From positions 89,068,765-89,132,764 of the forward strand of contig CM037588.1 of assembly GCA_021018995.1 (NCBI GenBank): 64,000 nt of DNA, written 5' to 3'. This document shows positions 14,434-62,883 of the stretch, piece after piece; position 1 is the stretch's first letter, and the number at the start of each line of letters is the position of its first letter. The notes under the pieces were generated by a model. The model saw only the letters and a program-made list of their open reading frames with translations. It was not told the DNA's origin and searched no databases. Position numbers and translations under genes: made by a program. The stretch comes from Chloranthus sessilifolius. Taxonomy: Eukaryota > Streptophyta > Magnoliopsida > Chloranthales > Chloranthaceae.

Positions 14434-14972
14434 ATAATCTATCCACTGAAATGGTCACAGACTATCCAATAGAGATGATCAAATCCCATTCCCATTGATC
14501 AACTCAGAAATCTGACCTAACCTAAGAGAGTGGATTGATCTTAAGGCTTTAATCTGCCCATTTAAATGGTCACAAACTATCCAATAGATTTCCTCCATTC
14601 AATGGATCAAATCAACCATAAAAACCATTACAGATACTATGTTTGTAAGGCTACAAGCTTATGCATTCATAGGAACAAACAAATCTAGGATTTCAAGTGG
14701 GAACCACCGAAAATCCCAGGCTGAATAGGGACTTAAGCTCAGCTGGTCATTGCTACAAAAGGCCAGCAATGACCCAGCTCACAAGTCTGTAATCACTACA
14801 AAACTCAGATCTAATCTTTGATAATGGTAATGCAAAATAGATGAGAGTTTGGCTCTGCACAATCTCTCACAAGGCTACAAGCTCATGTGCAGAGAAGAAT
14901 AATTCATCTCAGATTTGTGAGAAAGACCTTCCTTAAGGTTATAGCCTGTCCACTCAAATTGTCACAAACTAT
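14434..14972 (-). promoter_or_regulatory. Three 32-nt leader hairpins, LTR A1
   Basis: Hairpins at 14941-14972, 14549-14580 and 14434-14465 (minus strand, in that transcript order). Arms: ATAGTTTGT/ACAGGCTAT, ATAGTTTGT/GCAGATTAA, ATAGTCTGT/ATAGATTAT. Each pair can form allowing G-U, with one end mismatch in the second. A 14-nt middle with CCA...TGG can extend the stem. Confidence 0.75.
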
Positions 14973-15443
14973 CCTAGAGGCTACCTTCCACACAAATGAT
15001 GAGACAGAGCAGTAAAACTATTTTTGCCACCAAGGTTGCAAGGCCACAAGCTCAGGCAACCATCGGGGCATCAAACCCATAAAGATCTGTGTGAAAAATA
15101 CAGGTAAAATATAGATTTAAATGAACATTAAAATCAGCAATGCATTAAACAAAAGAAACTTACAATGCTTGCCCTCAAGGCGGCATCCTGTGCAAACTCC
15201 AAAACAGATCTTCTATATATAAAAAAAACCCATTGCATTACATGAAAATAAACCTAGCTATTACATAGATCTAGCCCAACATTGTTTCTGTGCTAGAGCA
15301 AGAAGAAAGGGGAAAGAGAAAAAAAATTAAAACACTAAAAGAAACCCTAAAATAAAACCCTAAGTGAACCAGGCTATTTCTGGCTCCAACCCTAACTGAG
15401 CTCAAGATATTCCTAGCTAAAACACAAAACAGGAAAAATATTC

Positions 15444-15452
15444 TTTATATAC
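15444..15452 (-). promoter_or_regulatory. TATA box of family A LTR1
   Basis: TATATAAAG on the minus strand. The first hairpin lies 472 nt downstream. Copy 2 has the decayed form TACATAAAG at 23199-23207. Confidence 0.6.
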
Positions 15453-15719
15453 AATCCCTCAGCCTTGGTGTGCCCTAGCCAATCCGAAATGAAGGGGGAA
15501 GATGTGTGGAGTTGGTTTCGGAGCCAATCTGTGACCCTTGAATGCCTCGGGCAGTGTGAGCATTGATAAGTGTGCCCTAGATATGTGTGAAAATCCCAAA
15601 CAACCCCTAAGATTTGAAGTGTTGCTACTGGAACCCGAGGTTCGCGTAGTTGGATTAGCTTCAGGCAACATTCTCATGAAGATAAAATAATACAACACAT
15701 ATATGGAGCTTCAGAACTT

Positions 15720-16480
15720 CATATCTCGTGAGGATGGCAACTCCACAACAACTCATCTCGCGAAGGTTACATTCGCTGAAGGCAAGCTCGTGAGGATGGA
15801 GTTGCGAGGATAAAGTAGTACAGCTTGTAAGCTGCTCACAGGGCTAGGTATTTCAGCATCTTCATAACAATTCACGAGGCTAAAATTGTATAGCAGCTTT
15901 GCTGCTTGCGAAGATGGATATACTCAGCAAATTCAGCTCTTCCTCCTCACGGGGATGGGAGTATTAACGACATGTAAGCTGCTCTCGAGGAAGGGAATAT
16001 ACAACAACTTGTAAGCTGCTTGCGAGGATGACATTTAATGCATTCCAGAACCAGTATCTCATGGGGCTCCTCTTCAACAACTCCTTGCTCGCGAGGATGA
16101 AGATTGATGGAGCTTCAGAACCCCAGCTCACGAGGATTGCGCTGGGTTCAGTTCCTTTCTTACTTTGCATAGCTTCAACTCGTGTAGTTCTCATGCAATG
16201 CTCTTGGTGCTTGACAGGTTTGAAGGTCTACTGATGGACTGCTCGAGTTCACCTGTGTAGCAGCAATCAGCAGCTTGTGGAGTTGACATTAACTGCTCGA
16301 GCTCCAAGTCCCATCAGCAATTAACTCCAGAGGTCCATTCCTTGGATCAGAAACTGCTTGAGTTGCACCAGCTATAGCTCTCTAACATTGCAACAGGTCA
16401 AGTAGATGGCTGATCTGCTCGAGAGGATGGCATATAGCACTTTGAGTACTCGAGTGCATCTGTAGCTACACTGCAGCTGC
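15720..16480 (-). repeat. CpG-centred CTCGCGAGG/GCTCGAG motif cluster, LTR A1 U3
   Basis: Many degenerate copies of CTCGCGAGGATGG, grading into GCTCGAG words further right, on the upstream side of the TATA box. The equivalent cluster in LTR A2 is at about 23470-24230. Confidence 0.7.
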
Positions 16481-17430
16481 TTGTGTTTCATCAATATGGT
16501 ACTGGGGGTGGTTGCTGCAATGTTAAAATTGCTTGAAGGCCTGATGTACATGCCGCTACTTTGCTGCCTACTTCTCTTGAATACATGGTGCAATAGCTTG
16601 GAGGTGCCACATGGTGTAGCAGCTCCTTCTGATGATAGGCTGCAACACCTCAGCCTTTAGCTCATGGGTGTGCTCAATGTCTCGTGTGCTGCACACATGG
16701 TGTGCTTTGGAATAAAGATAGCAGCTGCTCGATCTCTTCATGATAGCAGCTCATTTGGTTATGGATCTCCTGGGGTTCAAACCTTCAACACAAGAGGATC
16801 CAAGGTGCAGCTCAGCAGGGTGTTACTCAAGTATATTAACTCCACCAACACTCCAGTTCGAGAGGTTCATATGCACAACTCCTAATCTGTTGAGGGCCTT
16901 AAATCTCAGCAGCTTTTTGTTGCTCACGAAGGTGCAATGTGTGTAGCTGCATGCATTTTGCTGTGGTGTTGAACTGCTTCGACAAGGGATCGCAACTCAA
17001 TTGATGGAGTGGCAACTATAAAAGTTCACCTTGAACTCATGGTGCAACAGCTGTCTACTTGGTGCAACAGCTATGCAGTAGTAGGCTCTAAAGCAGCAAC
17101 TTCTGCTTCAAGTCTTTATGTCTACAGCTCCGGTGCTTGGTTGTGAAGCTGCATGGCAGGTTGGTGGAATCCAGCAGCAGCTCATAAAGGTTGCTTTGAA
17201 GGGTGAATTGCTTGAGCTCTTTGTGGCAGCAAAGCATGATGGCTTGAAGTGCTAAATTGCAGTAGCTACACTCAAGGGGCTCTATTTTGCTGCAACATCT
17301 GCTAGAATGATGCTTCACATCTGCCTTGTCCACCTTGTTGCTGTACTCCAATAGGAATGGGCTACTTCTCATAAAAATTGCTCAAGGCCTTGAATGCATG
17401 AGGTGAAGTTTTCTCCTCAACTGTTCAATT

Positions 17431-17455
17431 CAGTAGCTTTTCTTCTCTTTACCAC
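17431..17455 (-). other. Deletion junction with templated filler
   Basis: Relative to copy 2, about 730 bp (25199-25930) is missing. The junction holds CAGTAGCTTTTCTTCTC..., which matches 18023-18047 in the adjacent internal region with two mismatches over 25 bp. This looks like end-joining that copied a nearby template. Confidence 0.7.
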
Positions 17456-17936: not shown

Positions 17937-17968
<32 letters not shown>

Positions 17969-18690: not shown

Positions 18691-18704
18691 CACCCCCAAA
18701 TCTA
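18691..18704 (-). other. Internal polypurine tract, A1
   Basis: The minus strand reads TAGATTTGGGGGTG followed by TGGCA, the family A counterpart of the internal PPT copies in A2, B and P. Confidence 0.6.
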
Positions 18705-19639: not shown

Positions 19640-21147
19640 TGACTTGAAGAACCTCCATCAATCCAATGTACTCCTCGTGGGATGTTCACTGTTTGGCTTG
19701 GGAGCCGACCCTCTTCTCGTCACGTTTGAGCATTTGAAATATGACCAAGCTGTTCCTCAATTCTTTTGATGCTTTGCGTGTGGGATTCCACAATGTGTAA
19801 TGGAGTCTAGGTTTTGTAAAGAAGACAAAACCGGATCCTCAAAGGAGGGGGCTCTAGGGTATTGGGGTGCTACAACTAACTATCCTGGCATGGAGGGCAG
19901 ATGGGAACATTTTTGTCCTTGTGCATGACCTTGGTAAGACTGCTGGTTAGTATTGTAGGGCAAAGCCTGCTACTGCTGGGTATGAGGCGAATCAGCTTGT
20001 CTCCACCTCAGGTTTGGGTGGTTCCTCCAAGTGTACCCAGTAGGCTGCTATCCATATGACTGGACAACATTGGATTGCGCATGATAAAATTCAGGGGACA
20101 GGCCAGCAAAGGGACATTAAAGATGTGAGTGTGAGGGTGAGTGGCATATGGTGCACACCTCTCTAACTTGTGCAGCTACGTGGGGCTGCAACACACTCAA
20201 AACTTTATCGAACTTTTTCGACAATGTATCCACCTTTCTCTCTAGGTCACTATATACATTCAATTCATACAATTTACCGGAAGAGGTGGGTTCTCTAACA
20301 GCTCTAGCAGGTGACTCAATGCCACAACTGGGCAAAGCCTCCTACTGGAGAGAATTTACATTTATCAGCTCAAATAAATCCCATGCTTCCTCAGCGGTTT
20401 TGGTGAGGTATGTGCCACCACTTAATGCATCAATCATCGCTCTACTCCTGGCATCAAGTCCTTGGTAGAAGCTTTGTACAAGCTACCACATAGGGGTCTG
20501 GTGGTGCGGGCACTGCCTCAACAACTCCCTAAACCTATCCCATGCCTCATGCATTTGCTCAGTTGAGGATTGAGCAAAAGATATGATGCTCTTCCTCAAC
20601 TGGCTCATTTTACCGGTTGGAAAAAATTGGCCAGAAATTGGCATTGAAGATCGTTCCACGACTGTATGCTGTCTAGTGGGAGCAAGGAGAGCCATGTTTG
20701 GGCCTTATCCTTTAGTGAAAAAGGAAGAAGCCTAAGCTTGGTAGCTTCCTCTCCCAACCCAGCAGTATTAAAAGTAGTGCATAATGATAGAAAACGGCCT
20801 TTATTTTGGTGGGGGTCTTCCTTACTCAGCCCATGAAAACTTGGTAGCATTTCGATGGTTGAGGCTTTAATCTCGTAACTGCTCGCAGCATTAAGGAGCT
20901 GAATGTAAGAGAGGGATGCATATGCCCCCGGTGCATTGTGCTCCTTAAGTGTTTTAGATCGCGCTACCATCTTAGTTTCTACTAGATTTTTAGTCAGGGT
21001 GTGTGTTGCAGAACCAAGACTCAGAATTCTCTCAATTTCAGGATTTAACAGTGCAAGTTCGGGATTGAGAGACCTCTTCCTTGAATACAACACACACTCA
21101 GCTGGACAAGGGGTAGCTTTTAGCCCACAAATAAAAATTATAACCAC
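19640..21147 (-). pseudogene. Athila-type gag pseudogene (A1)
   Basis: Gag is the structural protein that forms the particle and binds element RNA. 21147-20605 is open and contains the conserved gag core: FHGLSKEDPH, LPFSLKDKAQTWL and SWNDLQCQFLANFF, as in the Retrotrans_gag family. A frameshift near 20600-20700 moves the reading into the next frame. There the coiled region DLERKVDTLSKKFDKVL and a CCHC-type knuckle (CTICHSPSHSHL, last Cys beyond a stop) occur at 20335-20117. Gag C-terminal sequence continues, with stops, to about 19640. No protease follows. It is the copy most diverged by frameshifts; its neighbours are the PBS on the right and the 3' non-coding block on the left. Confidence 0.85.
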
Positions 21148-21702: not shown

Positions 21703-21708
21703 AAAACT

Positions 21709-24700
21709 TGTTGTAATATTTTTTAGTAGTATGCTTATTTTTATTAGTTTGAAAATTGATGTGGAAAGAATCAGACATAAAAATCAAAAGATGGAATGAA
21801 CACACAAAAGCACAACAGGAAAACCCACGGAACTGTAAAAATCCTGGGTCTATTGTATCAAGTTTTATGAAGTAAGAGTTTATCCCATGGAGAGTATTGA
21901 TCTGAAACCACAAGGGTCGTATAGTAACCTCCAGATCTAGCTACAAACCTGGCAACTCTAAACCTAAATGGTGAAGAAAGGAAGTCTAGGTGTCATAAAA
22001 ATAAAAGAAAATATAACTAAATTAGAAATAAACTACAGCTAAAAGAGAAGGAAATGGAAGATGAATGTGGAGTGATAAAATAATATAAAATGATAAAGAA
22101 GTAGACAGCTAGGGTTAAATCAGTGATGCAACTCAGATCTAGAAATGAAAATGTAGCAATCCTTTACTTGGCTATAAGCACAAGTGCAAGGTATATGTAT
22201 CCAAATCAACCCATGCCATTTAGACTGCTCTTAAGGCTATAATCTGTCAACTTAAATGGTGACAGTCTATCCAATAGAGATGCTCAAATCCCATTGCTCA
22301 ACTAAAAAATCTTACCTAACCGAAGAGAGTGGATTGATCTTAAGGCTATAATCTATCCACTTAATTGGTCACAGCCTATCTAATAGATTTCCTCCATTCA
22401 ATGGATCAAATCAACCATGAAAATCATTGCATACACTATGTTTGCAAGGATACAAGCTCATGCATTCATAGGAGCAAACAAATCCAGGATTTCAAGTGAG
22501 ATACACCAGAAATCCTAGCTGAATGGGGACTTAAGCTCAGCTGGTCATTGCTACAAAATGCCTGCAATGACCCAACTTACAAGTCTGCAATCACTATAAA
22601 ACTTATATCTAATCTCTAATAATGGTAATGCAAAATAGAGAAGAGTTTGGCTCTGCACAATCTCTCACAAGGCTACAAGCTCATCTGCAGAGAAGAGGAA
22701 TCCATCTCAGATCTGTGAGAAAGACCTTCCTTAAGGTTATAGTCTGTCCACTCAAATGGTCATAGACTATCCTAGAGGCTACCTTCCACACAAATGATGA
22801 ACTGAGTAGTAAAACTGTTGCTGCCACCATAGTTGCAAGGCTACAAGCTTAGGCAACCATGGGGGCATCAAACCCATATAGATCTGTGTGAAAAACACTG
22901 GTAAAATATATATTTACATGAACATTAAAATCAACAATGCATTAAACAAAAGAAACTTACAATGCTTGCCCTCAAGGCAGTAGCCTGTGCAAACCCCAAA
23001 ACAGATCTTCTATTCATAAACAAAACCCGTTGCAATACATGAAAATAAGCCTTGCTATTACATAGATCTAGCACAACATTGCTATTGTGCTAGGGCAAGA
23101 AGAAAGGGGAAAGAGAAAAGAAACTAAAACCCTAAAAGAAACCCTAAAATAAAATAGGAAATATATTCTTGGGTAAAATACAAAATAGGAAAAATATTCT
23201 TTATGTACAATCCCTCATCCTTGGTGTGCCCTAGCCAATCTGAAATGAAGGGGGAAGATGTGTGGAGTTGATTTCGGAGCCAATATGTGACCCTTGAATG
23301 CCTCGGGCTGTGTGAGCATTGATAAGTGTGCCCTAGACATGTGTGAAAACCCCAAACAGCCCCTGAGATTTGAAGTGTTGCTGCTGGAACCGAGGTTCGC
23401 GTAGTTGGATTAGCTTCACGCAGCATTCTCGCGAATAAAAAATAATACAACACATATATGGAGCTTTAGAACTTCATATCTCGTGAGGATGGCAACTCCA
23501 CAACAGCTCATCTCGCAAAGGTTACATTTGTTGAAGGCAAGCTCTCGAGGATGGAGATATATACAATAGTTGGAACCAGCTTCTCCACTTTGTGAGGAAA
23601 AAATAGTACAGCTTGTAAGCTGCTCGCGGGGCTGGGTATTTCAGCATCTTCATAAGAATTCGTGAGGCTAAACTAGGATAGCAGCTTTGCTGCTCTCAAA
23701 GATGGATATACTCAGCAAATCCAGCTCTTCCTTCTCGCGAGAATGGGAGTATAAACATATTGTAAGCTTCTCACGAGGAAGGGAATATATAGTAGCTTGT
23801 AAGCTGCTCGCAAGGATCACATTTAATGCATTCCAGAACCAGCATCTCGCGGGGCTCCTCTTCAACAACTCCTTGCTCGTGAGGATGAAGATGGATGGAG
23901 CTTCAGTACCCCCAGTTCGCGAGAACCGCGCTGGGTTTTAGTTCCTTTCTTCATTTGCATAGCTTCAACTCGCGTGGTTCCCATGCAATGCTCTTGGTGC
24001 TTGACAGGTTTGAAGGTATGCTGATGGACTGCTTGAGTTCACTTGTGTAGCAACAATCAGCAGCTTGTGGAGTTGACATTAACTGCTCGAGCTCCAAGTC
24101 CCATCAGCAATTAACTCTAGAGGTCCATTCCATGGATCATAAACTGCTCGAGTTGCACCAGCTATAACTCTCTAACATTGCAACAGGTCAAGTGGATGGC
24201 TGATCTGCTTGAGAGGATGGCATATAGCACTTTTAGTACTCGAGTGCATCTGTGGCTACACTGCAGCTACTTGTGTTTCATCAATATGGTACTGGGGGTG
24301 ATTGCTACAATGTTAAAATTACTTGAAGGCCTGATGTGCATGCTGCTGCTTTGCAGCCTACTTCTCTTGAATACATGGTGCAATAGCTTGGAGGTGCCAC
24401 ATGGTGTAGCAGCTCCTTCTGATGACAGGCTGCAAAACCTTAGCCTTCAGCTCATGGGTGTGCTCAATTTCTAGTGTTCTGCACGCATGGTGTGCATTGG
24501 AATTAAGATAGCAGTTGCTCAATCTCTTCAAGATAGCAGCTCATTTGGTTGTGGATCTCCTTGGGTTCAAACCTTCAACACAAGAGGATCCAAGGTGCAG
24601 CTCAGCAGGGTGCTACTCAAGTATATTAGCTCCACCAGCACTTCAGTTTGAGAGGTTCATATGCAAAACTCCTAATCTGCTGAAGGGCCTTAAATCTCAA

Positions 24701-30149: not shown

Positions 30150-30155
30150 AAAACT

Positions 30156-31624
30156 TGTTGTAATATTTTTTAGTAGTATGCTTATTTTGATTAGTTTGGA
30201 ATTAGATGTGGAAAGAATCACACATAAAAATCAAAAGATGGAATGAACACACAAAAGCACAAAACCAAAACCCACAGACCTGCAAGAATCCAGGGTCTGT
30301 TGTATCAAGATTTATGAAGTAAGAGTTTGTCCCACTGAGAGTATTGATCTAAAACAACAAGGGTCGTATAGTGATCTCCAGATCTAGCTACAGATTTGGA
30401 AACTTTAAACCTAAAAGGTGAAGGGAGGAAGTCTAGGTGTCATAAAAATAAAAGAAAATACAACTAAAATAGAAATAAACTACAGCTAAAAGAGTGGGAA
30501 ACAGAAGATGGATGTAGTGTGAGAAAATAACATAAAATGATGAAGAAGTAGACAACTATGGTTAAATCAGTGATGCAACTTAGATCTAAAAATGGAAATG
30601 TAGCAGTCCTTCACTTGGCTATAAGCACCAGTGCAAGGTATATGTATCCAAATCAACCCATGCCATTTAGACTGCTCTTAGGGCTATAATCTATCCACTT
30701 AAATGGTCATAGACTATCCAATAGGGATGGTCAAATCCCATTGATTAACTCAAAAATCTGACCTGACCCAAGAGAGTGGATTGATCTTAAGGCTATAAAT
30801 TATCCACTTAAATGGTCACAAACTATCCAATAGATTTCCTCCATTCAATGGATCAAATCAGCCATGAAAACTATTCAGATACCATGTTTACAAGGCTACA
30901 AGCTCATGCATTCCTAGGAGTAAACAAATCTAGGATTTCAAGTGGGAACCACCTGAAATCCTAGGCTGAATGGAGGCTTAAGCTCAGCTGGTCATTGCAA
31001 CAAAAGGCCTGCCACTACAAAACTCAGATCTAACCTCTGATAATGGTAATGCAAAACAGAGGATTGTTTTGCTCGGCACAATCTCTCACAAGGCTACAAG
31101 CTCATGTGCAGAGAAGAAAAATCTACCTCAGATCTGTGAAGAAGACCTTCTTTATGGTTATAGTCTGTTCACTCAAATGGTCACAGACTATCCTAGAGGC
31201 TACCTTCCACGCAAATGATGAGACAATGCAGTAAAACTGCTGCTGCCACCATGGTTGCAAGGCTACAAGATCAGGCAACCATGGGGGCATCAAACCCATA
31301 AAGTTCTGTGTGAAAATCATAGGTAAAATACAGATTTAAATGAACATTAAAATAAGCAATGCATTAAATATAAGAAACTTACAATGCTTGCCCTCAAGGC
31401 GGTAGCCCGTGCAAACCCTAAAATAGATCTTCTATTTATAAACAAAACCCATTGCATTACATGAAAATAAACCTAGCTATTACATAGATCTAGCCCAGCA
31501 TTTCTACTGTGCTAGGGCAAGAAGAAAGGGGAAAGAGAAAAGAAACTAAAACCCTAAAAGAGACCCTAAAATAAAACCCTAAGTGAACTTGGCTATTCCT
31601 GGCTCCAACCCTTACTGAGCTCAA
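30156..31624 (-). repeat. Family A LTR copy 3, truncated
   Basis: Starts at TGTTGTAATATT and follows copies 1 and 2 until 31624, just short of their TATA box, where it changes abruptly to Tat-like sequence. All of U3 is lost. Confidence 0.85.
30686..31191 (-). promoter_or_regulatory. Three 32-nt leader hairpins, LTR A3
   Basis: 31160-31191 (ATAGTCTGT/ACAGACTAT, perfect), 30795-30826 (ATAGTTTGT/ATAATTTAT, one mismatch) and 30686-30717 (ATAGTCTAT/ATAGATTAT, fully paired with one G-U). Confidence 0.75.
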
Positions 31625-31628
31625 TGAC

Positions 31629-32968: not shown

Positions 32969-33509
32969 TGTTGTCAGGCAACCTTGCACATCAAAATGGG
33001 GTTAAAACTTTGAAAATGAAAGGCCTATGGACTGCACACCAAGGTAAGCCTACACAAAGCCTACAAGTAAACAGGGCTGTTATAGTAAGTTTTAAAGAGT
33101 AAGTAAGGTTATATCAATAGGGAAATGTGTGCTAAAATTTAGTAAATCTCTAGATCTAAGACAGATCTAACACTCTACCTTATACTACTCAAAACAAAAA
33201 ATAGCAATAGGAAGAGGAGAGGTTTTAAAGGGTTGTCACTTTAAGCTAAACTACAAAAACAAAATAGAACTAATTGTAGAGATAAATTGGGATTAACCAA
33301 AAAGTTCAGATCTAGAAAATGAAGGGAAATGTGGTGAAAATAAAACAGTAAAATGGAGAAGAGCAACTCGGGATCTGGTCTCACTGTTACTTGGGTGCTT
33401 TGGCAGCATTATAAGGGTTCAATGTGCAACAATCCCCATCTGGCTACAAGCACAGCTGCAGGGTAGAATAATTTGATCTCAGCCAGAGAATTAGATTGCT
33501 CTTAAGGCT

Positions 33510-33541
33510 ATAATCTGTCCACTTTAATGGCCAGAGACCAT
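33510..33541 (-). promoter_or_regulatory. 32-nt leader hairpin, element C 3' LTR
   Basis: Arms ATGGTCTCT and ACAGATTAT, one mismatch and two G-U pairs, with a CCA...TGG inner stem. It lies 495 nt downstream of the TATA box. Confidence 0.65.
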
Positions 33542-34319
33542 CCAATAGAGTCCTCCATTCTAAAGCCTCTAGCAAAACATAATAACTACTACAAATGCTG
33601 TGAACGCCAGGCCACAGGCACAAGCACCCACAGAAGTATTAGATCTAGGAAGATCAAATGGCCTTCAAGAGATCTACCAGTTAAGTGGGTGGGCTAGTCC
33701 CATCTACACAAATCCGATCGAGAATCAAATGAAACAAGATGATCTATAGATTGAACTAAGCAATAAAATCAACAATTCATTGAATAAAACAAGAAGTACA
33801 ATGAAGTGCTCTCAGATTTATAGTCTATGCAACAATTGACCCACAATAATGCTCTCAAGTTCCCCAAGTTACAGATCAACCTCACCCTTACTGGTCAAAA
33901 GAGTTAAGACACTCATGATTGGCTAAAGAGAGAATGGAAGAAGGAAGAATGAATCTGAGCTCTGGTTTTTTCCCTTATTTTTGTCTATGGAATCCCTCCG
34001 GAAAGAACTCACCATTTTTGGATTGTTCTTCTCTTCTTATACCTTCCTCCTCTGTCTCAGATTCGTTTCAGCCAATCAGAGCTCAAGAGAATAATTCTGT
34101 TATTCTGGAATGCTGATGTGGTCGATTTCTCTTCTAGAAGCTCTTCTCCCATTGGTCCACAAGTAGCAAATGCATGTGAGGCCGTTAGAGTTTCCAATCG
34201 TGCATAGTTGAATACCAAAAATACCCTCAGGGGTCGTTAACATGCTTTGGGATGTGTGCACAAGCTTTTGAAATTTACAGCTACTGAAGGAACACGCTGA
34301 GAAGTTGCCAAAATGTTTG

Positions 34320-40380: not shown

Positions 40381-42042
40381 TTAGGAAGCATCAACATCTC
40401 CCTTATTCAAGCTATGTTGTTCCTGCTGCATATCTTTTTGGGCTATTTCTTTTTCTTTTTCTGCATTTTTTACAGGCTCAATACCAACTTGATTGTCAAA
40501 CGTCCTCCCACTTCTTAAGGTAGTAATAGATTTAGCTTCTTCATGTAAAGAAGAAACTTTACCTACCACATAGTTCCTCTTTGGATTATCCATGGGCTGA
40601 CTAGGCAGCCTCCCCTCTTCTCTCTTTGTCAAGGCATTAGATAGCTGACCAAGGTGGTCTTCTATCATTTTAATGCTTTGGCTGTGAGAGTGGACTGTTT
40701 GAGATAAAGAGCCCATGTTCTGCAATGAAACCAGAACTTGCTCTTCAAAAGAGGGTGATCTAGAAGTTGGGGCTTGTGTAGTTTGTCGCATAGGCTGAGC
40801 CACAGGCTGAGCCATGGTCTACTGCTATTGGGGCCTTGGGACAAAATTTTGTTGATAGGTCTGGGGAGCAGGTTTATAAGGCATTGGCTGCTGTGGATAG
40901 AACTACTACTGCTAGTTTTGGACATTGTCTTGTCTACATCTCAGATTACGGTGGTTTCTCCAAGAGTCACTAGCATTTGGCATCTGGCCAAAGGTTTGAG
41001 AACCCTGCACATGTTCCATCACTAGTTCTAAAAATTGAGCAGTAGAGGGACAATCCTGAATAGGATGAGTGGGAGATTGGCAGATGAGGCATGCCTCTTC
41101 CACATTGGCAGCCATTGGAGACTGCATTGTTCCCATCATTTTCTCCAACCTCTGGGTCAAGTTAGCTACCTTTCTTTTCAAGTCATTATACCCACTAATT
41201 TCATACATTCTACCTCTGGTTGTATTTTCCGTCAATATTCCTGTTGGAATCTAAATGTCCCTAGTGAGAGACTCCTGCTGTAAGGAGTTTTCACTAATAA
41301 CATCAAACAATTCCCAAGCTTTCTCAGCTGTTTTATGAAGGTATGTGCCTCCACAAGAAGCATCCACCATATTTCTACTTTTGGAGTCAATTCCTTGATA
41401 GAAACTTTTTACAAGTTTCCATTCAAGAACTTGGTGGTGCGGGCATTGCCTTAATAGCTCTCTGAATCTCTCCCATGCTTCATGGAACCCTTCAGTTTGG
41501 AGTTGAGAAAATGAGATGATACTTTTTCTCAATTGACTGGTTCTAGACATGGGGAAGAATTTAGCTAGGAATTGACATTGCAGGTCATTCCAAGAGTTGA
41601 TACTGTTAGGGGAAAGTGAGGACAACCAGGCCCTGGCTTTGTCCTTTAATGAAAAAGGAAATAGCCTAAGCTTTGTTTCTTCTAGCCCTAGTCCTGCAAT
41701 GTTGAAGGTAGTACACAAGCCAAGGAATTCACCAACATGTTTGCATGAGTCCTCTTTACTCAAACCATGGAAAGAAGATAACATCTGGATGGTTGAATAT
41801 TTAATTTCATAATTTTCCTCTTCAGCAGGAAATTGAATGCAAAATGGAGAGTTGTATGCACCAGGTGCATAGTAATCTCTCAACAGCCTTGGTTGCTCAC
41901 CCATTTTAACAGATTCAGGTGCAATAGATGTAGGTGGGGTTTGTTTAGGCCTAAGAATTCTCTCAACCTGTGGATTGATTGGCACAAGTTGAGGGTTGAG
42001 GTTTCTTCTTCCAAACATACACCACTCACAATCCCGATGCAC
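40381..42042 (-). pseudogene. gag of element C
   Basis: Three open stretches in one frame (42042-41251, 41235-40912, 40815-40381) separated only by stop codons. Gag core: STIQMLSSFHGLSKED, LRLFPFSLKDKARAWLSSL, SWNDLQCQFLAKFFP and ECHHQ-like RQCPHHQ. The coiled region DLKRKVANLTQRLEKM is followed by a perfect CCHC knuckle CLICQSPTHPIQDC, then SPSFEEQVLVSLQNMGSL and ITTLRSGRTFDNQ at the C-terminal end. This is the best-preserved gag of the window. The start is taken at the first Met after the leader, but MFGRRNLNP (24 nt downstream) aligns better with the other copies. Confidence 0.88.
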
Positions 42043-42363: not shown

Positions 42364-42911
42364 AAAACATGTTGTCAGGCTACCTTGCGCTTCAAAAAGG
42401 GGTTAAAACTCAGAAAATTAAAGGTCTATGGAGTGCACACCGAGGTAAGCCTACACAAAGCCTGCAAGTAAACATGGCTATTGTAGCAAGTTTTAAAGAG
42501 TAAGTAAGGGTATGTCCACAGGGAAATGCGTGCTAAAATTCAGTAAATCTCCATATCTAAGACAGATCTGGCACTCTACCTTATACTATTCTAAATGAAA
42601 AATAGCAAAAGGAAGAGGAGAGGTTTTAAAGGGTTGCCACTTTAAGCTAAACTATAAAAACAAAATAAAACTAACTGTAGAGAAAAATTGGGATTAACGA
42701 AAAAGTTTAGATCTAGAAAATGAAGGAAAATATGGTGAAAATAAAATAATAAAATGGAGAAGAGCAACTCAGGATATATTCCCGCTGCTACTTGGGTGAT
42801 TTGACAGCATTATAAGGGTTCAATGTGCATCAATCCCCCATCTGGCTACAAGCACAACTGCAGGGTAAAATACTCTAATCTCAGCCAGAGAATTAGATTA
42901 TGCTTAAGGCT

Positions 42912-42943
42912 ATAATCTGTCCACTTTAATGGCCATAGACCAT
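42912..42943 (-). promoter_or_regulatory. 32-nt leader hairpin, shared C/B LTR
   Basis: Arms ATGGTCTAT and ACAGATTAT, one mismatch, two G-U. 498 nt downstream of the TATA box. Confidence 0.65.
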
Positions 42944-43689
42944 CCAATAGAGTCCCTCCATTCTAAGGCCTCTAGTAGAACATGATAACCACTACAAATG
43001 CTATGAACGCCAGGCCACAGGCAAAAGCACCCATAAGAGTATCAGATCTAGGAAGATCAAATGGCCTTCAAGAGATCTACCAGTTAAGTGGGTGGGCTGG
43101 TCCCATCTACACAAATCCGATCGAGAATCAAATGAAATAAGATGATCTATAGATCTAACTAAGCAATAAAATCAATAATTCATTGAATAAAACAAGAAGT
43201 ACCATGAAGTGCTCTCAGATTTATAGTCTATGCAACAATTGACCCCCAATAATACTCTCAAGTTCCCCAAGTTACAGATCAACCTCACCCTTACTGCTCA
43301 AAAGAGTTTAGCCACTCATGATTGGTTAAAGAGAGAATGGAAGAAGAAGGAAGAATGAATCTAAGCTCTGGTTTTTTCCCTTATTTTCATCTATGGAATC
43401 CCTCCAGAAAGAACTCCCTGTTTCAGGATTGTTCTTCTCTCTTTATACCTTCCTCCTCTGTCTTAGATCCATTTCAGCCAATCTGGGCTGCTGATGTGGC
43501 CGATTTCTCTTCTAGAAGCTCTTCTCCCATTGGTCCATAAGTAGCAAATACATGTGAGGCCGTTAGGGTTTCCAATCATGCACAATTCAATACCAAAAAT
43601 ACCCCTAGGGGTTGCTGACATGCTTTGGGATGTGTGCACAATCTTATGAAATTGGCATTTGCTGAAGGAACATGCTGAGAAGTTGCTAA

Positions 43690-49354: not shown

Positions 49355-49362
49355 TATATAAG
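49355..49362 (+). promoter_or_regulatory. TATA box, element P 5' LTR
   Basis: TATATAAG; the R region would begin ~30 nt downstream. The 3' LTR copy is at 61285-61292. Confidence 0.7.
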
Positions 49363-49896
49363 CTACACTTAGAGTTTAGTTTTAGGATCGACCCTTCTTT
49401 TCATCCTCTATCGGCTGAGAGCTCCAGTTGGCTAGGGATAGGGTTTGATCATCGCTTTTTCCCATTTTTCTTCTCTCTTATCCCAACACTTACTGGCTAA
49501 TCCCCCCGTAAGCAGTTAGGTTTAGTTTATTTCAATTTGTAATAGGTTTTGTATACATTGGGATCTTTGATGAGCAGCTGTGTATAGGCTGCAGCCTAGA
49601 GATAGTTTATTGTAAGTTTTGCTGTTATTAATGGATTGTTGTTTTAATGATTAATTAAATCTAAAGATCTTATGGTTTCTTTATATGTCTATAAGATACA
49701 TGTATTTGGGACGTGCCCATTTAGTTTCCAGTAGATCTATTATTTACCATCTAATTTCCCTTGGTTTGGTAGCCCCATGAAAAGCAATGCTGGATTTGTA
49801 GTGAGATCTGGGGAGCTCGGAGGCCTGTGGACCATGGTGGTTGCAATAGTTTTCATGCTCTTTCTCAGACCTCTGTGGTATGGACAGACTAATGGG

Positions 49897-50490
49897 ATAC
49901 CCTGTGACCATTTGAGTAGACAGAGTATAACCCTAAGGTGGTGTCCAACGACATGCTTGAGAAAGATTCTTCTCCCCTGCACATGAACTTCTAGAGCCTT
50001 GTGAGGAGAGGCTCCCCTCTATTTTAATGGATTGATATTTTGATCAGTAAACAAAGGGGAGAGGAACGGACTCCCCTCTATTTTACCTAACTGATATCAG
50101 ATGTTAGATTTGATGTCTCTGTAGTAGTTACAGCTTGAGGCTGAGTCATTGAAGGCCTTTTATAGTAATAACTAGCTGAATTTAGAGCCTTATTTAACCT
50201 GTTACATAGTACTTTTTATAGGCATTAGTGAGCTATTGGCCTTGGCAAAGCACTTAGGATTTTATGGATTAGAATACCTATGGATGTCAGCCAAATCTGT
50301 GCGTAGATATGGGGAGCTTATAACACTGGCATTACATAGTTGTATAATAGTATTCATGGCCTAGTCTAGTCCAGTGGTTGGAGAAATAATCAGTCCACTC
50401 CTTTGAATTAGATTAGCAACTTCTGACTTGAACGATGGGATTTGACAGACTCTATAGGATAGGCTGTGACCATTTGAGTGGACAGCCTAT
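49897..50490 (+). promoter_or_regulatory. Two 32-nt leader hairpins, element P 5' LTR
   Basis: 49897-49928 (ATACCCTGT/ACAGAGTAT, one mismatch) and 50459-50490 (ATAGGCTGT/ACAGCCTAT, perfect). The C-G and G-C pairs replace the G-U/G-C and T-A pairs found in family A. Confidence 0.78.
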
Positions 50491-51013
50491 AGCCTTAAGA
50501 GCACCCCAAATAGCATGGATTAAGTTGGACACTTCTACCTTGTTGAGGCTTTTGATAGCATCTCATCAAGGAGCACTGCAGAGACAGATTAAATATGAGT
50601 TGCATTGCTGCTTTAACTCTAAACTTAACCTGCTTCTCACCAATTTTTATATTTTATTTTGGCATACACCATCACCATCTTCTTCTTAACCCTTTCTTTA
50701 GAATAGGGCTATATTTTATTTCTCTTTTATTAGGATTAATTTAGTGTAGTCGTGACACCCAGCTCCCTTTCTTTAGGATTGTCAGATCTGTAGCCAGATC
50801 TAGAGGCCTATTATTATAGCCCATTTTGGGTTCTAGATCAATTTCTCTGTGGCACAAACTCTTACTTATCAAAACTTGCTACAATAGGCCCTGTATCTTG
50901 CAGGTCTAGGATTACTTTGGTTATGCTGAATTCATTCTTTTGTTTTACTTTATCTTTAAATTTGTTTCCACCACACAATAAACAAAGCACCAAGGGGTCT
51001 GATAACAAGTTTT

Positions 51014-51031
51014 TGGCGCCGCTGTCGAGGA
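51014..51031 (+). other. Primer binding site, element P
   Basis: TGGCGCCGCTGTCGAGGA, 6 bp after the LTR end; Athila-type. Confidence 0.88.
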
Positions 51032-53889: not shown

Positions 53890-53895
53890 ATTCTC

Positions 53896-55675
53896 ATGAC
53901 AGCAGACAACACAAATACTGAGTCTTTTGTGGGCCTAGTGCAGCACACATTGCTGCCCACTCCTCAAACCACTAAGGCACCCTTGTTGGCCTCAATTGAA
54001 AGTCCCCCTGAGTTGAAGCTGAAACAGCTCCCAGCCACATTGAAATATGTCTTCTTGGGGCAGGATAACAAGCTTCCTGTGATTATCTCCTCCTCTCTCA
54101 CTAGTGAGCAGGAGGAGGAACTATTGAATGTTCTTAAGAAGCACAAGAAAGCAATTGGGTGGACAATAGCTGACCTTGGAGGCATTGGTGCCTCAGTTTG
54201 CATGCACAAGATTCACCTGGATGAGGGTGTAAAACCCTCAAGAGAGATACAGAGGTAATTAAATCCTCACATGCAGGAGGTGGCCCTCAAAGAAATAGTG
54301 AAATTGCTAGATGCAGGGGTGATTTACCCATTTCAGATTTCGAATGGGTGTCACCTATCCAGGTGGTACCTAAAAAGTCAAGCATCACAGTTGTTGCTTC
54401 TGATTCTGGGGAGTTGATGCCAGCCAGAGAGACCATTGGCCGAAGAGTATGCATTGATTATAGGAAGCTCAACTCCAGAACTAGAAAGGACCATTTCCCT
54501 CTCCCTTTTATTGACCAAATTCTAGACAAGTTGGCTGGGAAGGCATATTACTGTTTTCTTGATGGATACTCAGGGTATAACCAAATCCCTGTGGATCCTC
54601 AAGATCAGGAGAAAACTACTTTCACATGTCCCTTTGGCACCTTTGCTTACAGAAGGATGCCTTTTGGACTGTGTAATGCCCTAGCCACTTTTTAGAGGTG
54701 CATGTATGCAATTTTTTCTGATATGATTGATAAATTTTTGGAAATCTTCATAGATGATTTCTCAGTGTATGGGGACAGCTTTAGCCAGTGTCTGATTCAC
54801 CTTGAAAGAGTTCTACAAAGATGTGAGGAGACTAACTTGGTCCTAAGTTGGGAAAAGAGTCACTTTATGGTGACACAAGGTATTGTACTAGGCCATGTGG
54901 TCTCTCACAAAGGAATTGAGGTTGACAAGGCTAAAGTAGACTTGATCTCACATCTGCCCCCACCCAGGACTGTCAAGCAAATAAGATCATTTCTTGGACA
55001 TGCTGGATTTTATAGGAGGTTCATCAAGGACTTCAGCAAGATTGCCAAACCATTGGCCCACCTACTTTGCCAGGATGTGCCATTTATATTTTTTGATGAA
55101 TGTCTTCAGGCCTTTGAGGCTTTGAAAAAGTACCTTACTACTGCCCCTATCATTCAGGCCCCAGATTACTCACTCCCCTTTGAGCTGACGTGTGATGTAT
55201 CAGACTTGGCCATAGGTGCTGTCTTAGGACAGAGGAGAGATAAGCTGCCTATAGTGATATATTATGCCAACAAAACACTAGCTGATGCTCAGTTGAACTA
55301 CACCATAACAGAGAAGGAGCTACTTACAGTAGTGTTTGCTGTGGACAAGTTTAGACCCTACTTGTTGGGGTCTAAGATTATAGTTTTTACAGATCACTCA
55401 GCTTTGAAATACCTACTGGCTAAGAAGGATGCAAAGCCTAGGTTGATCAGATGGATCCTCCACTTGCAGGAGTTTGATCTGGAGATAAAAGACAAGAAGG
55501 GAGTTGAGAATGTGGTGTCTGACCACCTCTCTAGGATTATTCTGGATGAATGTGCAACAGCACCTATTAATGAGTTGTTTCCTGATGAGCAGCTTTTTGC
55601 TTTACAATCTAGTGTGCCCTGGTTTACACACATTATCGATTTTCTTACTGCTGGTAGGATCCCTCCATACTAGTC
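53896..55675 (+). pseudogene. Reverse transcriptase and RNase H of element P
   Basis: The N-terminal extension (53896-54258) leads, through a stop and a frameshift near 54260-54348, to the RT core: VCIDYRKLNSRTRKDHFPLP, FLDGYSGYNQIPVDPQDQEK and RMPFGLCNALATF, then stop. From 54702: [12 protein letters not shown] (catalytic FIDD at 54747-54758), [20 protein letters not shown]. RNase H motifs follow in frame: [15 protein letters not shown] (Asp), YTITEKELL (Glu), [15 protein letters not shown] (Asp) and VVSDHLSRI (Asp). All catalytic residues are visible, but the chain is interrupted. Confidence 0.9.
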
Positions 55676-55679
55676 TAAG

Positions 55680-57620: not shown

Positions 57621-57719
57621 AGTGGATAACTGCACAAACTACGGAAATAGTCCTTTTTACCTTGAGAAATTTTTTCAATTTCCTATCTCTTCACCTTAAT
57701 TCTCAGTGCTAAAAAAAGA

Positions 57720-58556: not shown

Positions 58557-60031
58557 AGGCAGGCTTTGCCAATGAAGCAGTTAATCTAAGTGCAGTAGAA
58601 TCAAGTGAGTAAGATAGAAATGGATCCGTGTTCACTTAAAAATCATAAAAAAAAAAATTGAGAAATTTAAACAAAAAAAAATATATTTTGTAGACCTTGA
58701 GGCATCACAAGCTTTTAAATTTTAGCATTTCCATGATGTGAACACCAAGAAAACTCACTTGTATAAGTACTTAGTGAATCATTAAAGAAAGAAAAAGATA
58801 AGGACATGCCTAAGAGCTCAATGGAAGACCATAACTAGTGAGATTTGGGCCTACAAAAATTTTTCCTTTCTTTGAGGAGTAACTGAGGCAATTCTTCTAG
58901 CCCTAAGGACTGGCTGAGTCTGTTCCCTCACTAGAAGTTAGGCACCTCCAAGTTGAAACAACTGACATCACTCATGACACTTAGGAAAGGATGAAGGCCT
59001 TCTCTTGGACAATTTGAGCTTAAACAGATCAAACTTTAATTAACTGCCCTTGTGCACACACTTTTTGAGCCTTAATTTCTAATTTTCTTCAAAATACACC
59101 TGAGTACTTGTACCTGAATCTATGGACCTGATTCAAACCTACCCTCACTCTGAGAAATCAGAAGGCAAAGGAGAAGGAGCTGAAGATGGACAAGATAAGG
59201 TCGATATTGGGTGAATAGAGAAGGGATACGTAGAACTTAGCAGTGTAGCAGCTAAGGAGAGAAGTGGCAAGTCAGAAAAATAAAAATAAAAATAAAAATG
59301 TATCCAAAAAGAAAGAAAAATAATAATGAAGAGGAATAAGAGAAGAAATAAGAGAAAAAGTTTCTTGAAAAATCAAAAACAAGAGGAGAAGCTGGCCACT
59401 TTAAGTCTGAATAATTTTAAAGACATGGAAAGGTGTTGAACTAAAGAAGGTGAAGTCATGAATCACCTCCTTCACCTACTGATTTCTCAACTACCCATTC
59501 TTTATAACCTATCCCATAAGCCACATTACAACCCAGTTAAAAGTCCCTATGATCAAAGTTGAATGAGCTGTCATGCAGAGACAAAGAGCTGTCCAATCTA
59601 TGGTAAGGATTAGCCAATGATGGCAGAACTTAGATGCTATGTCTATGCTCATGCCTACATACCCATTTGGGGCCTGTAACTGCTCTTGAGCTTGAGAGAA
59701 AATGGAAACCCTCAAAGTTCCTTGTGAGAAGTATGCCCTGTTAAGCATTGGGGCTGGTGTTGAATGTATTGGGCATGAGCTAGAACCTAATTTTTAAATT
59801 AATGATAAACTCAGTACTGGCCTACATGTGATGTTTTTTCCCTGCTGTGAGCTAATTGGAAATGATGTGTATCTATGTAGAAGCTGTGATGAGTAATTGT
59901 TTGTGCATAATCATATGTTCAAATTCCTCATATATTTTCTTTTGTTGAATCAAAGGTGAACTAATGCTCTGTTTCTTGATAGCTAACTTGATAATTTCAC
60001 TTATGTTAACTGTTTTATTGAGAAGTTTGTC
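58557..60031 (+). other. Conserved 3' non-coding block, element P
   Basis: No ORF. Blocks shared with A and C/B in inverted genomic orientation include AGTGAGATTTGGGCC (about 58838-58852) and a string around GTAACTGCTCTTGAGC (59677-59692). Equivalent blocks: A2 25691-27147, C 35467-36835, B 44891-46283. Confidence 0.7.
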
Positions 60032-60216
60032 GGTATCTTCACTAAAAACCCTCAGGAAACTTCACTCGTCCTCTAGGGATCACCAAGGGGTTTAAAAGGC
60101 TTGATACATATGCTAAATGTATCCGTGCTCCCTACGAAAGTGGCATTTAAATTCTTAGAATAGTTGTTTTAAATTTTCCTTTGCTCAGGGACTAGCAAAG
60201 GTTAGGTTTGGGGTTG
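60032..60216 (+). promoter_or_regulatory. Pre-PPT module and PPT, element P
   Basis: 60032-60105 matches the modules of A2, C and B, including AAACCCTCAGGA and AGGGGTTTAAAAGGC that can pair. GTTAGGTTTGGGGTTG ends at 60216, directly before the LTR. Confidence 0.75.
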
Positions 60217-62883
60217 TGTTATTCGCTGAAAAGTATCACTTTTCATCTCTTAATCTAGCCTTTGATAGACCTTGAAGTAGACTAATAATCATTTGTTAAG
60301 TGTGTTTTGTAGTTAGCGATAATCTATGTAGCTTAATATAAAATCCATCCTTATTGGCCCAAAGAAGAGGAAGAAGACATGCAAAGATGACAGCTGAGCC
60401 AAAGCCTAATGAAACACCCTAGTAGTGCTCACCATGGTGACTCATTTGTTGGTCATCATTGACTAAAAACCTAGCAGATGGATGAAGTTGACTGAGCATG
60501 GAGAAACTGTAACAGTAGCATGTGCAATGCATCAGAGCATAGAAAGACAGATCTCGCAGAGTTGAGAAGCTCCCTCGCGAAGCTAAGGATGTAGTGGAAT
60601 ATGCCCTCGCACAGATAGGAGATGCAGTCAAGAGAGTTGTAAAGACATCACGAAGATCTCGTGGATTAAAATTCTCAGAATTTGTGGTTGCGAAGCTCTC
60701 GGGAAGATTAAGCCTTAAAGCAGCCGCGCGAAGAACATAGCGAGTCCATGTGTGTACTGAACAAAATCTCACCTCACGGAGTTCGTGCATGGCCCTGAAA
60801 GAGAGAGACGCCCAGAATTCTCCTCGCGTAAATTTCATGCACTCTAAAGCCTTACCAATTACTACGCGAGTGCAGGAGCATACCTGTGCGAGTAACGAAC
60901 GTGAGAGAGCTTCTGAACCTCTACTATGCGTTAAGCCTAGGCACTCAAGATCATCTCCGCGATAGCATTACAGCACAAAGGAACTGCGCGATTAATTGAA
61001 GATACACTATGCGAGTGAGCACTTCCCACCAACCAAAAGCTACTCTGCGAAGGCTCTACAATAGCGTGAATGAATGAATGCATATGCTAGCCCCACGAAG
61101 CACGAGCTCCCCACTTCTCAGTTTTAACTCAAGGACCTTTTGAGAATTTTCCAAGGCTAGGGCACACATCCTTAGGTGCTGATTTTGAGGCACACGTCTC
61201 AAGACATTCAAGGATTGTAACAGTGCCACATCTGCTAGAAAAATTAGAGTTAATCTCTTCAAAGCCAAGGCCGTATGGATAGAGTATATAAGCTACACTT
61301 AGAGTTTAGTTTTCGGATCGACCCTTCTTTTCATCCTCTATCGGCTGAGAGCTCCAGCAGGCTAGGGTTAGGGTTTGATCACCTCCATTTCTCATTTTTC
61401 TTCTCTCTTAGCCCAACACTTGCTGGCTAATCCCCCTATAAGCAGTTAGATTTAGTTTATTTCAATTTGTAATAGGTTTTGTATACATTAGAATCTTTAA
61501 TGAGCAGCTGTGTACAGGCTGCAGCCTGGAAATAGTTCATTATAAGTTTTGCTATTATTAATGGACTATTATTTTAATGATTAATTAAATCAAAAGATCT
61601 TATGGTTTTTATAGATGTCTATAGGATCCATATATTTAGGATGAGCCCATTCAGTTTCTAGTAGATCTATTGTTTACCATTCAATTTTCCTTGGTTTGAT
61701 AGCCCCATGGAAAGCAATGCTGAATTTGTAGTGAGAACTAGAAAGCACGGAGGCCTATGGACTATGGTGGTTGCAGCAGTTTTCATGCTCTTTCTCAGAC
61801 CTCTGTGGTATGGACAGACCAATGGGATATCCTGTGACTACTTGAGTGGATAGAGTATAGCCCTAAGGTGGTGTCCAGCCACATGCTTGAGAAAGATTCT
61901 TCTCCCCTGCTCATGAGCTTCTAGAGCCTTGTTGAGGAGGTTTGTACAGGAACTGGCTCCTCTCTGTTTTACCTAACCGATATCAGATGTTAGATTTAAT
62001 GTCACTGTAGTAGTTATAGCTTGAGGCTGAGTCATTGGAGGCCTTTTGTAGCAATGACCAGTTAAATTTAGAGCCTTATTCAACTTGTTACATGGTCCTT
62101 TTTATGGGTACCAGTGAGCCGTTGGTCTTAGCAAAACACTTAGGATTTTATGGGTTGGAATACCTATGGATGTCAGCCAGATCTGGGCAGCTTATAGCAC
62201 TGGCATTACATAGTGCTGCAATAGTATTCATGGCCTTGTCTCGTTCAATAGTTGGGGAAATGATCAGTCCACTCCTCTGGATTAGATTAGCAACTTCTGG
62301 CTTAATCAATGGGATTTGACACACTATAGGATAGGCTATGACCATTTGAGTGGACAGCCTATAGCCTTGAGAGCACCCCAAATGGCATGGGTTAAGTTGG
62401 ACACATATACCTTATTGACGCTTTTGATAGCGTCTCAGTAAGGAGCACTGCAGAGACAAACTAAATCTGAGTTACATTGCTGCTTTAACTCTGAACTTAA
62501 CCTGCTTACTTCTCACTAATTTTTATATTTTAGTTTGGCACACGCCATCACCATCTTTTTCTTAACCCTTTCTTTAGGATAGGGCTACATTTTATTTCTC
62601 TGTTGTTAGGATTAATTTACTGTAGTCGTGACACCCAACTCTCTTTCTTTAGGATTGTTAGATCGGTAACCAGATCTGGAGGCCTACTATTATAGCCCAT
62701 TTTGGGTTCTAGATCAATTTTTCTATGGGATAAACTCTTACTTATCAAAACTTGCTATAATAGGCCCAGTATCTTGCAGGTCTAGGATTACTTTGGTTAT
62801 GCTGAATCCGTTCTTTTGTTTTACTTTGTCTTTAAATTTGTTTCCACCACATAATAAACAAAGCACCAAGGAGTCCGACAACA
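60217..62883 (+). repeat. Element P 3' LTR (2667 bp)
   Basis: Starts TGTTATTCGCTG and ends GTCCGACAACA. TATATAAG at 61285-61292; motif cluster at about 60555-61100. Confidence 0.93.
61827..62362 (+). promoter_or_regulatory. Two 32-nt leader hairpins, element P 3' LTR
   Basis: 61827-61858 (ATATCCTGT/ATAGAGTAT: T-G and G-U pairs, one mismatch) and 62331-62362 (ATAGGCTAT/ACAGCCTAT, one mismatch). Confidence 0.7.

Follow-up and report, generated by a model that had tools for sequence, protein, structure and literature searches.

We analysed 64,000 nt of contig CM037588.1 from the genome of Chloranthus sessilifolius (2.17 Gb, 32 contigs); this stretch is referred to as the window. It carries three families of long terminal repeat (LTR) retrotransposons, here called A, C/B and P, which we take to belong to the Athila lineage, and a preliminary description had noted in their LTRs a 32-nt hairpin, present in 15 copies, as a candidate RNA signal. 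Our results revealed that these hairpins are the tips of a larger structured domain of ~118 nt, designated H1, which is followed by a linker and a companion hairpin, H2. The domain covaries, its pairing is kept in the sense RNA and it lies in the presumed leader, so that the proposal of an RNA signal stood in these respects, while the 32-nt hairpin as its unit did not. Judged from sequence, H1 may be a cis-acting structure by which the genomic RNA of these Athila (Ty3) elements is recognized for packaging or replication, and we assign this reading a probability of about 45%.

All 15 of the 32-mers were found at the positions given for them. A profile scan of both strands of the window returned 17 copies with scores of 38.8-51.9 bits, while the next-best site scored 5.0 bits and was the antisense shadow of one genuine copy. 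The two copies beyond the 15 have their tips at 13625 and 13740 on the plus strand, and self-BLAST placed both in a 255-bp inverted copy, at 13618-13872, of the stretch 14333-14587, to which it is 100% identical. This inverted repeat lies in and beside the first A LTR, where the surrounding elements differ by ~10%, and stems either from a recent duplication by fold-back or from an error of assembly. Homology to gag and pol is on the plus strand in P and on the minus strand in C/B; in A, where it is limited to gag, it is also on the minus strand. The orientation of the copies relative to these genes is identical in 15/15; therefore, all 15 have a common sense-RNA reading, AUAG-N-CUGU-GA-CCA-UUURAG-UGG-ACAG-N-CUAU, with variants. 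The LTRs examined contain 1-3 copies each. The statement that the A, C/B and P LTRs are otherwise poorly alignable holds at the threshold of the window self-BLAST (E<1e-20, matches of at least 150 nt), in which the sole A-to-P LTR match, 30635-30786 with 62262-62413, is the H1 domain.

The structure was derived with RNAalifold from 46 copies sharing <82% identity, which folded into one four-tier stem-loop of 42 pairs. Default settings gave little beyond the tip, and a first covariance model (R1) based on that 13-pair structure was discarded; the outer tiers emerged with RIBOSUM scoring after tandem and broken copies had been dropped, and once seen they were put to separate controls, namely shuffled and slid partners, parsimony and alignment-free pairing of own versus other arms. 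The loop is UNNA in all 91 distinct tips, with a closing U·G pair in 87 of them. Next outward come CCA/UGG, a GA bulge on the 5' side (78/91 tips) and the 9-bp helix. The suggestion that CCA...TGG extends the stem was borne out, as CCA and UGG pair inward of the GA bulge and are followed by the U·G pair. The 9-nt arms described before are also present, but their helix is not confined to them and continues inward and outward through three more tiers. Below it lie an AR bulge on the 3' side, NGG/CCN, a 2x2 internal loop and a 4-bp helix that varies between copies (e.g. CUCU/AGAG, AUCU/AGAU, CCCU/AGGG), and then two longer outer helices, which differ between families and still have 74.8% of their cells paired in the alignment of the 46 copies (A2). 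The tip is conserved in sequence and the outer tiers mainly in pairing. Part of the tip conservation is due to selection of the data, because the copies were chosen by tip sequence and the looser pattern used on the genome fixed most of the loop, leaving arm columns 3-5, 8 and 28-30 free.

The core of the tip consists of GG-AUAGNCUGU-GA-CC against GG-ACAGNCUAU-AR-CC, with a 2-nt purine bulge at either end of the 9-bp helix. Its two strands (GG-9-RR-CC) resemble each other, with a mean identity of 8.4/15 against 3.9 for shuffled strands in 103 copies, and the core is thus nearly two-fold symmetric; part of this symmetry arises because the arms are complementary and near-palindromic. The linker after H1 is close to GGAUUCUUCU, though exact in only 11/103 copies, and the loop of H2 is near GCUUGUAGC. 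The H2 stems change jointly (CAGAUG/CAUCUG, CACUUG/CAAGUG, CAUUUG/CAAAUG, CAGUGG/CCACUG). For the H2 test, 77 distinct copies had a linker matching GGATTCTTCT at no fewer than 7 of 10 positions, and 44 of these shared <85% identity; 7 of the 44 were left out since the next H1 followed immediately or an insertion was present. In the remaining 37 rows, with 3 doubtful linker pairs included, 77.6% of cells were paired versus 68.7±1.05 in the control, and 78 cells were changed on both sides versus 32±6. An H2-type loop, GAGCTTGTAGCC, with CCATGG-like arms was also observed upstream of the first H1 in two loci fetched from elsewhere in the genome (L013 and L010), and H2-type hairpins may therefore stand on both sides of H1.

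The pair-preserving changes noted earlier in the arms were upheld by shuffle, slide, parsimony and tree-null tests. The starting set comprised 111 copies scoring >22 bits, of which 103 were distinct with full flanks; 91 of these were kept after removal of tips <95 nt from another and of the two copies in the inverted duplicate, and reduction to <82% identity gave the 46 rows of A2, a plain MAFFT alignment that was not fitted to the structure. First, of 1915 pair cells in A2, 82.9% were standard pairs, compared with 75.0±0.6% after shuffling and 30.6-45.3% with slid partners. Cells changed on both sides numbered 231 versus 101±10 shuffled and at most 85 slid, and 30 of the 42 pairs had at least one both-sided change, a number attained in 1 of 500 shuffles. 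Second, parsimony on the tree of the rows counted 63 pair-keeping double events, 56 of them between Watson-Crick pairs, against 9-25 with slid partners, and 145 single pair-keeping events against 47-92; two or more double events were found at 12/22 outer and 6/20 inner pairs. Third, in an alignment-free test on 33 representatives (<75% identity), the 3' arm belonging to each 5' arm was compared as its pairing partner with the 3' arms of all the others. The 9-nt arms gave -7.13 kcal/mol with their own partners versus -4.99±0.38 with others, and the outer flanks -22.80 versus -18.45±0.77 kcal/mol, with 0/5000 permutations as low in either case. Fourth, a purpose-written script was used in place of R-scape, with the null simulated on the tree and an alignment fitted to the structure. 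From the first 94 of 116 covariance-model matches, the other 22 being antisense shadows of at most 35.1 bits, 69 long rows of <90% identity were taken, without the window copy at 13695. Over all column pairs, 5 passed E<0.05 (3 belonging to the structure) and 10 passed E<0.5 (7 belonging to it); when the test was limited to structure pairs, 12/42 passed, and in a smaller run 2 of 3 passing pairs were in the structure. The preliminary description had made its proposal depend on covariation beyond phylogeny, and this is what the tree null recovered. The compensatory changes of H1 thus exceed those produced by composition and phylogeny, as in a structured RNA.

The same data indicate the strand on which the pairing is kept. 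In the 15 copies of the window, the 180 cells of the 9-bp arms and 3 inner pairs comprised 146 Watson-Crick, 20 G·U, 7 A·C and 7 other; in the 9-bp arms of the 91 distinct tips (819 cells) there were 677 Watson-Crick, 92 G·U, 32 A·C and 18 other; and in the 22 outer pairs of A2 there were 575, 172, 60 and 192, respectively. Because a G·U pair reads as A·C on the opposite strand, the sense strand is the one with the kept pairing, and the excess of G·U over A·C in sense argues that RNA pairing is conserved. Accordingly, a plus-strand reading of many A pairs shows apparent A-C mismatches where the sense reading shows G·U. In the tips, the excess comes mainly from column pairs 4/29 and 6/27, while the two types are about equal at pair 5/28 (17 and 15), the outcome expected of decay. 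In addition, the minimum free energy was lower in sense than in antisense in 33/40 copies, and covariance-model scores were 53.1-108.5 bits in sense and at most 35.1 in antisense. Antisense arms paired more weakly in the alignment-free test, yet showed a preference for their own arm as well.

The hairpins had been placed in the RNA leader, and TATA-like boxes and primer-binding sites (PBS) were found to bracket the domain in the presumed transcript leader, whose start is predicted from the box. In 16 LTRs, drawn from the window and from the fetched loci, the first tip is preceded by a TATA-like site at a distance of 444-542 nt; a search over 900 nt gave no such site in L002, L003 or the LTR on the minus strand of L014, and several loci ended too early to show one. 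The A and C/B LTRs offer sites closer to the tip, at 249 and 281-282 nt, and in some of them a site at 479-504 nt is present as well. The order previously given, with the first tip downstream of the TATA box, is therefore correct, but the distance of 429-535 nt depends on which site is chosen (444-542 or 249/281-282 nt); under either choice for A and C/B the domain stays within the RNA. The PBS, near TGGCGCCGYTGYC, comes after the LTRs and lies 517-576 nt downstream of the last tip in 9 LTRs. Doubtful sites were found at 583 nt in L002 and L003, and sites with mismatches at 560 and 568 nt in L011; the other LTRs had none at the expected spacing. The PBS of P is presumably that of tRNA-Asp. Both marks are also present in LTRs with one tip, namely L017 (TATA 444, PBS 560) and the C/B LTR with the tip at 42912 (TATA 504 or 282, PBS 576), from which we infer that extra tips arose by duplication of the intervening stretch. 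Where both marks are found, H1 would lie in the genomic-RNA leader, the position expected of a packaging signal. Intron-like signals (GTAAGT ... CACAG or CCATAG, ~75 nt apart) were observed between the TATA-like box and the first tip in A LTRs (~22885-22960, minus strand) and in L013, and a short leader intron is possible.

The proteins of the host elements were identified with Pfam and tblastn, which revealed Ty3-type gag and reverse transcriptase (RT)/RNase H on the LTR strand, with pol in C/B and P only; their named protein relatives are from plants. At 14000-31600 the A elements form an LTR-internal-LTR-internal-LTR tandem with common LTRs. Both units show gag homology (19946-21081 and 28436-29528), while a tblastn search, in which 8 pol and 6 gag proteins served as queries, detected no pol homology in them over 15.8-30.1 kb; C/B and P have both. 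The A family is dispersed: among the 40 candidates scored of 4455, a 1.4-kb piece of it had 19 matches beyond the window, on 10 contigs, each covering at least 1300 nt at 86-89%. Two of the 19 were opened downstream of gag and showed no pol before the LTR, and each of their LTRs has three tips. At L070, a pol match is on the opposite strand, beyond the LTR match. These findings suggest that the pol-less A family uses machinery supplied in trans through a common cis signal. A two-tip LTR at L012 (G000:C1:81490000-81499900) is followed by gag (6631-7794, minus strand), with no pol in the remaining 6.6 kb downstream. L011 (G000:C1:79312000-79321999) holds tandem units of 4.91 kb that are ~90% alike. 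These have LTRs of the P type and retain the leader and the two tips, but lack the stretch corresponding to ~51345-58390 of P (gag and pol). A dispersed coding-less family derived from L011 was considered and rejected, as, among the 40 best-ranking candidates that were scored (from 2308 seen at first), the deletion junction was found solely there, spanned by the 2 local units, while the others match one side. We also observed an Rfam match to snoR71 (RF00097) at 41429-41534 on the plus strand (43.2 versus a gathering score of 40), opposite to the C/B gag open reading frame (ORF); this Rfam family possibly contains gag sequence in antisense.

Beyond the window, an exact 21-mer pattern matched the host genome 21,759 times and its reversed control 0 times, and there were 0 matches in the prokaryote genome collection and 0 in IMG/VR; chance is excluded by this contrast. 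IMG/VR also yielded no confirmed pol relatives. A looser pattern of the 32-nt tip matched 56,143 times, with 0 for the reversed control.

Recognition of genomic RNA fits best because the domain is kept on the sense strand, lies in the leader, is repeated and is retained without pol. The RNA itself probably does the job of the domain, marking the molecule for copying. In such a mechanism, the paired, freely evolving outer helices would be a scaffold and the sequence-conserved tip a recognition site; a variable scaffold with an invariant tip is the picture that a protein recognition site would present. The tip would be bound by a protein acting on genomic RNA, above all the element's own Gag, whose binding would select full-length RNA for packaging and reverse transcription, and 1-3 copies of the domain would make the binding multivalent. 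A more ambitious version, which we consider less probable, is a lineage-wide platform of plant Ty3 RNA, in which a symmetric 15-nt duplex would dock two protein copies, form a multivalent array with H2 and be used in trans by pol-less relatives.

Several observations weigh against genomic-RNA recognition. All copies come from one genome, and many are decayed. In A2, 17% of pair cells are not standard pairs, and parsimony counts 221 pair-breaking events, though this is below the 263-350 of slid partners. Just 3 structure pairs pass E<0.05 under the tree null, and 2 of the 5 passing pairs fall outside the structure. The short tier beside the tip is weak alone (own -4.15 versus -3.46±0.25 kcal/mol, permutations reaching -4.38), and stretches of 172 nt exceed their shuffled versions in stability by a modest margin (mean z of -1.36 in sense and -1.11 in antisense, for the first 40 of the 46 rows), whereas the margin is clear for the bare tip (z from -3.2 to -5.0, 3 tips). 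The coding-less units of L011 keep their tips, yet none was found dispersed among the best 40 candidates scored. The A family retains gag and therefore does not decide between packaging and gag translation, in which leaders with 28-30 AUGs leave a role for the domain.

Translation control, with H1 aiding the passage of ribosomes through a long AUG-rich leader by shunting or internal entry, or restraining translation, is on balance unlikely. Measured between the presumed transcript start and the point where gag homology begins, the leader has 1969 nt and 30 AUGs in P and 1881 nt and 28 AUGs in A LTR 3, and the available text on plant pararetroviruses describes a precedent in long structured leaders with upstream ORFs (PMC5902531). 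However, there is no conserved upstream ORF at the base of the H1 stem (an AUG in the first 16 nt in 17/46 rows, AUGUUC in the first 20 in 8/46), a shunting scaffold needs no conserved tip sequence, and the number of copies ranges over 1-3.

By analogy, the symmetric purine bulges might instead recruit two molecules of one host RNA-binding factor for export or stability, as the retroviral constitutive transport element (CTE) recruits NXF1/TAP. The resemblance of both core strands to GG-A-Y-AG-N-CU-R-U-RR-CC (the 8.4/15 given above) agrees with this, but it is partly due to complementary, near-palindromic arms. A plant LTR element does carry a structured stability element, the Evade ENE, which as described in the available text is in the 3' untranslated region (UTR) and pairs with poly(A) (PMC12501189). 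We consider such a function rather doubtful, more so than translation control.

It is improbable that the hairpin faces the host, the folded LTR transcript being diced to feed small-RNA silencing in the manner proposed for palindromic maize Sirevirus LTRs. In microRNA genes the arms are conserved, not the loop, and selection for silencing would not hold the loop, bulges and tip of H1 while its outer arms change together. The stems are admittedly ~40 bp long, and hairpin-like folding of Athila6 RNA is one of three possible triggers of small interfering RNA in the available text of McCue et al. (PMC3276544). Rfam gave no microRNA match in the domain and, over the whole window, no match of any kind in an H1 domain at gathering score; none appeared up to E 1 in the P 5' LTR copies, and in 9 loci scanned whole the one sub-threshold match was outside the domain. 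A microRNA precursor, hammerhead retrozyme or other Rfam family was rejected on these grounds.

A DNA-level element made of inverted or palindromic transcription-factor sites, like the repeated Sirevirus motifs, is very improbable, even though each 9-nt arm is near-palindromic (AYAGNCTRT) and repeated with fixed spacing. Columns 3/30 are A-T in 64 tips, G-C in 23, G-T in 3 and A-C in 1, while column 7 is T in 90/91; the A to G change in column 3 is matched in the partner arm and not within its own arm. Variants thus track the partner arm rather than arm symmetry, for which reason a palindromic DNA site was rejected; the G·U excess (pair 5/28 apart), the covarying outer helices and the position downstream of the TATA-like box agree with this. 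An H-type or class 3 xrRNA-like (exonuclease-resistant RNA) pseudoknot was rejected because the loop UUURAG and the 3' flank CYUARG are complementary in consensus but change without compensation: all six pairs are possible in 26/103 copies and five in 55/103, with loop column 17 able to pair in 54/103 and loop column 19 in 62/103. An insertion resembling a miniature inverted-repeat transposable element was rejected, since different LTR families keep the domain in the same place and orientation and with its linker.

The coordinates are collected in the table, in which scores are those of covariance model R2; the tip at 13625-13656, at the edge of the inverted duplicate, gave no match to this model.

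Table. H1 domains, H2 regions and coding and leader features of the host elements in the window
Feature	Coordinates	Strand	Remarks
H1, P 5' LTR copy 1	49852..49970	+	tip 49897-49928; 81.9 bits
H1, P 5' LTR copy 2	50415..50533	+	tip 50459-50490; 88.9 bits
H1, P 3' LTR copy 1	61782..61900	+	tip 61827-61858; 83.3 bits
H1, P 3' LTR copy 2	62289..62405	+	tip 62331-62362; 72.1 bits
H1, A LTR 3, first in transcript order	31118..31234	-	tip 31160-31191; 78.1 bits
H1, A LTR 3, second	30753..30869	-	tip 30795-30826; 90.2 bits
H1, A LTR 3, third	30644..30761	-	tip 30686-30717, from profile scan; aligned row in A2; overlaps neighbour by a few nt, no separate score
H1, A LTR 2, first	22697..22813	-	tip 22739-22770; 79.4 bits
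H1, A LTR 2, second	22306..22421	-	tip 22348-22379; 69.2 bits
H1 tip, A LTR 2, third	22239..22270	-	profile scan; tip only, no separate full-domain score
H1, A LTR 1, first	14899..15015	-	tip 14941-14972; 84.1 bits
H1, A LTR 1, second	14506..14624	-	tip 14549-14580; 79.8 bits
H1 tip, A LTR 1, third	14434..14465	-	profile scan; tip only, no separate full-domain score
H1, inverted duplicate 13618-13872	13695..13813	+	tip 13740-13771; 60.3 bits
H1, C/B LTR	33468..33583	-	tip 33510-33541; 75.9 bits
H1, C/B LTR	42870..42986	-	tip 42912-42943; 74.4 bits
Linker and H2 region after P copy 1	49964..50035	+	H2 alignment
Linker and H2 region after C/B copy	33403..33474	-	H2 alignment
TATA-like box, P 5' LTR	49355..49361	+	542 nt upstream of first tip
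Primer-binding site of P	51014..51030	+	initial TTTTTGG match 551 nt downstream of last tip start
gag ORF piece, A element	20605..21147	-	Pfam PF03732
gag ORF, C/B element	41251..42042	-	Pfam PF03732, 2.4e-24
RT/RNase H piece, P element	54702..55673	+	Pfam PF17917, PF17919

Large parts of plant genomes consist of Ty3 elements, and to our knowledge little is known about the recognition of their genomic RNA. If the proposed role is correct, H1 would be a plant counterpart of retroviral packaging or export elements that has spread to over 56,000 places in a single genome. With its fixed tip and covarying stems, the domain also provides a handle, as its covariance model can serve to classify LTRs and the defined RNA can be probed or used as bait, and it enables a test of whether pol-less families move through a common leader signal. 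The retroviral CTE is likewise a long stem in which two similar internal bulges are arranged with two-fold symmetry, but it lies in the 3' region, whereas H1 is in the leader with 2-nt bulges 9 bp apart; symmetry alone was compared. We found no description of H1 in searches of the open-access literature, judged mostly from listings and with subscription papers mostly outside their scope, and a term search of the main text of a plant survey of new structured RNAs (PMC12218528) returned no transposons, LTRs or Athila. The Evade ENE of Arabidopsis is also a structured RNA in a plant LTR retrotransposon, but according to the available text it belongs to a Ty1/copia element, lies in the 3' UTR and forms a triple helix with poly(A) (PMC12501189).

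The nearest published LTR motifs that we found are those of Sireviruses (Bousios et al. 2010, PMC2829016), which are likewise repeated, symmetric and conserved in sequence in the LTRs of otherwise divergent plant elements. In the available text, these are Ty1/copia palindromes of 10-20 nt, 8-32 per element, upstream of the TATA box and with a CGG-CCG core in all but one (PMC2829016); a link with small RNAs was proposed later, according to PMC10760457. The structure described here instead belongs to Ty3/Athila elements, has ~118 nt in several tiers together with H2, occurs 1-3 times per LTR seen and shows covariation of the RNA type; membership among the Sirevirus motifs was rejected, as it has no CGG-CCG core, lies downstream of the TATA-like box and accompanies Ty3-type proteins. 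With the packaging and dimerisation structures in the 5' leaders of retroviruses, Ty1 and Ty3, no sequence relation was seen and none was sought. As far as the available texts describe them (PMC4974528, PMC11381356, PMC8096270), those structures are stem-loops near the 5' end of the genomic RNA, as H1 would be, though it differs in being repeated and in standing in a far longer leader, with its last tip ~550 nt upstream of the PBS, within the LTR.

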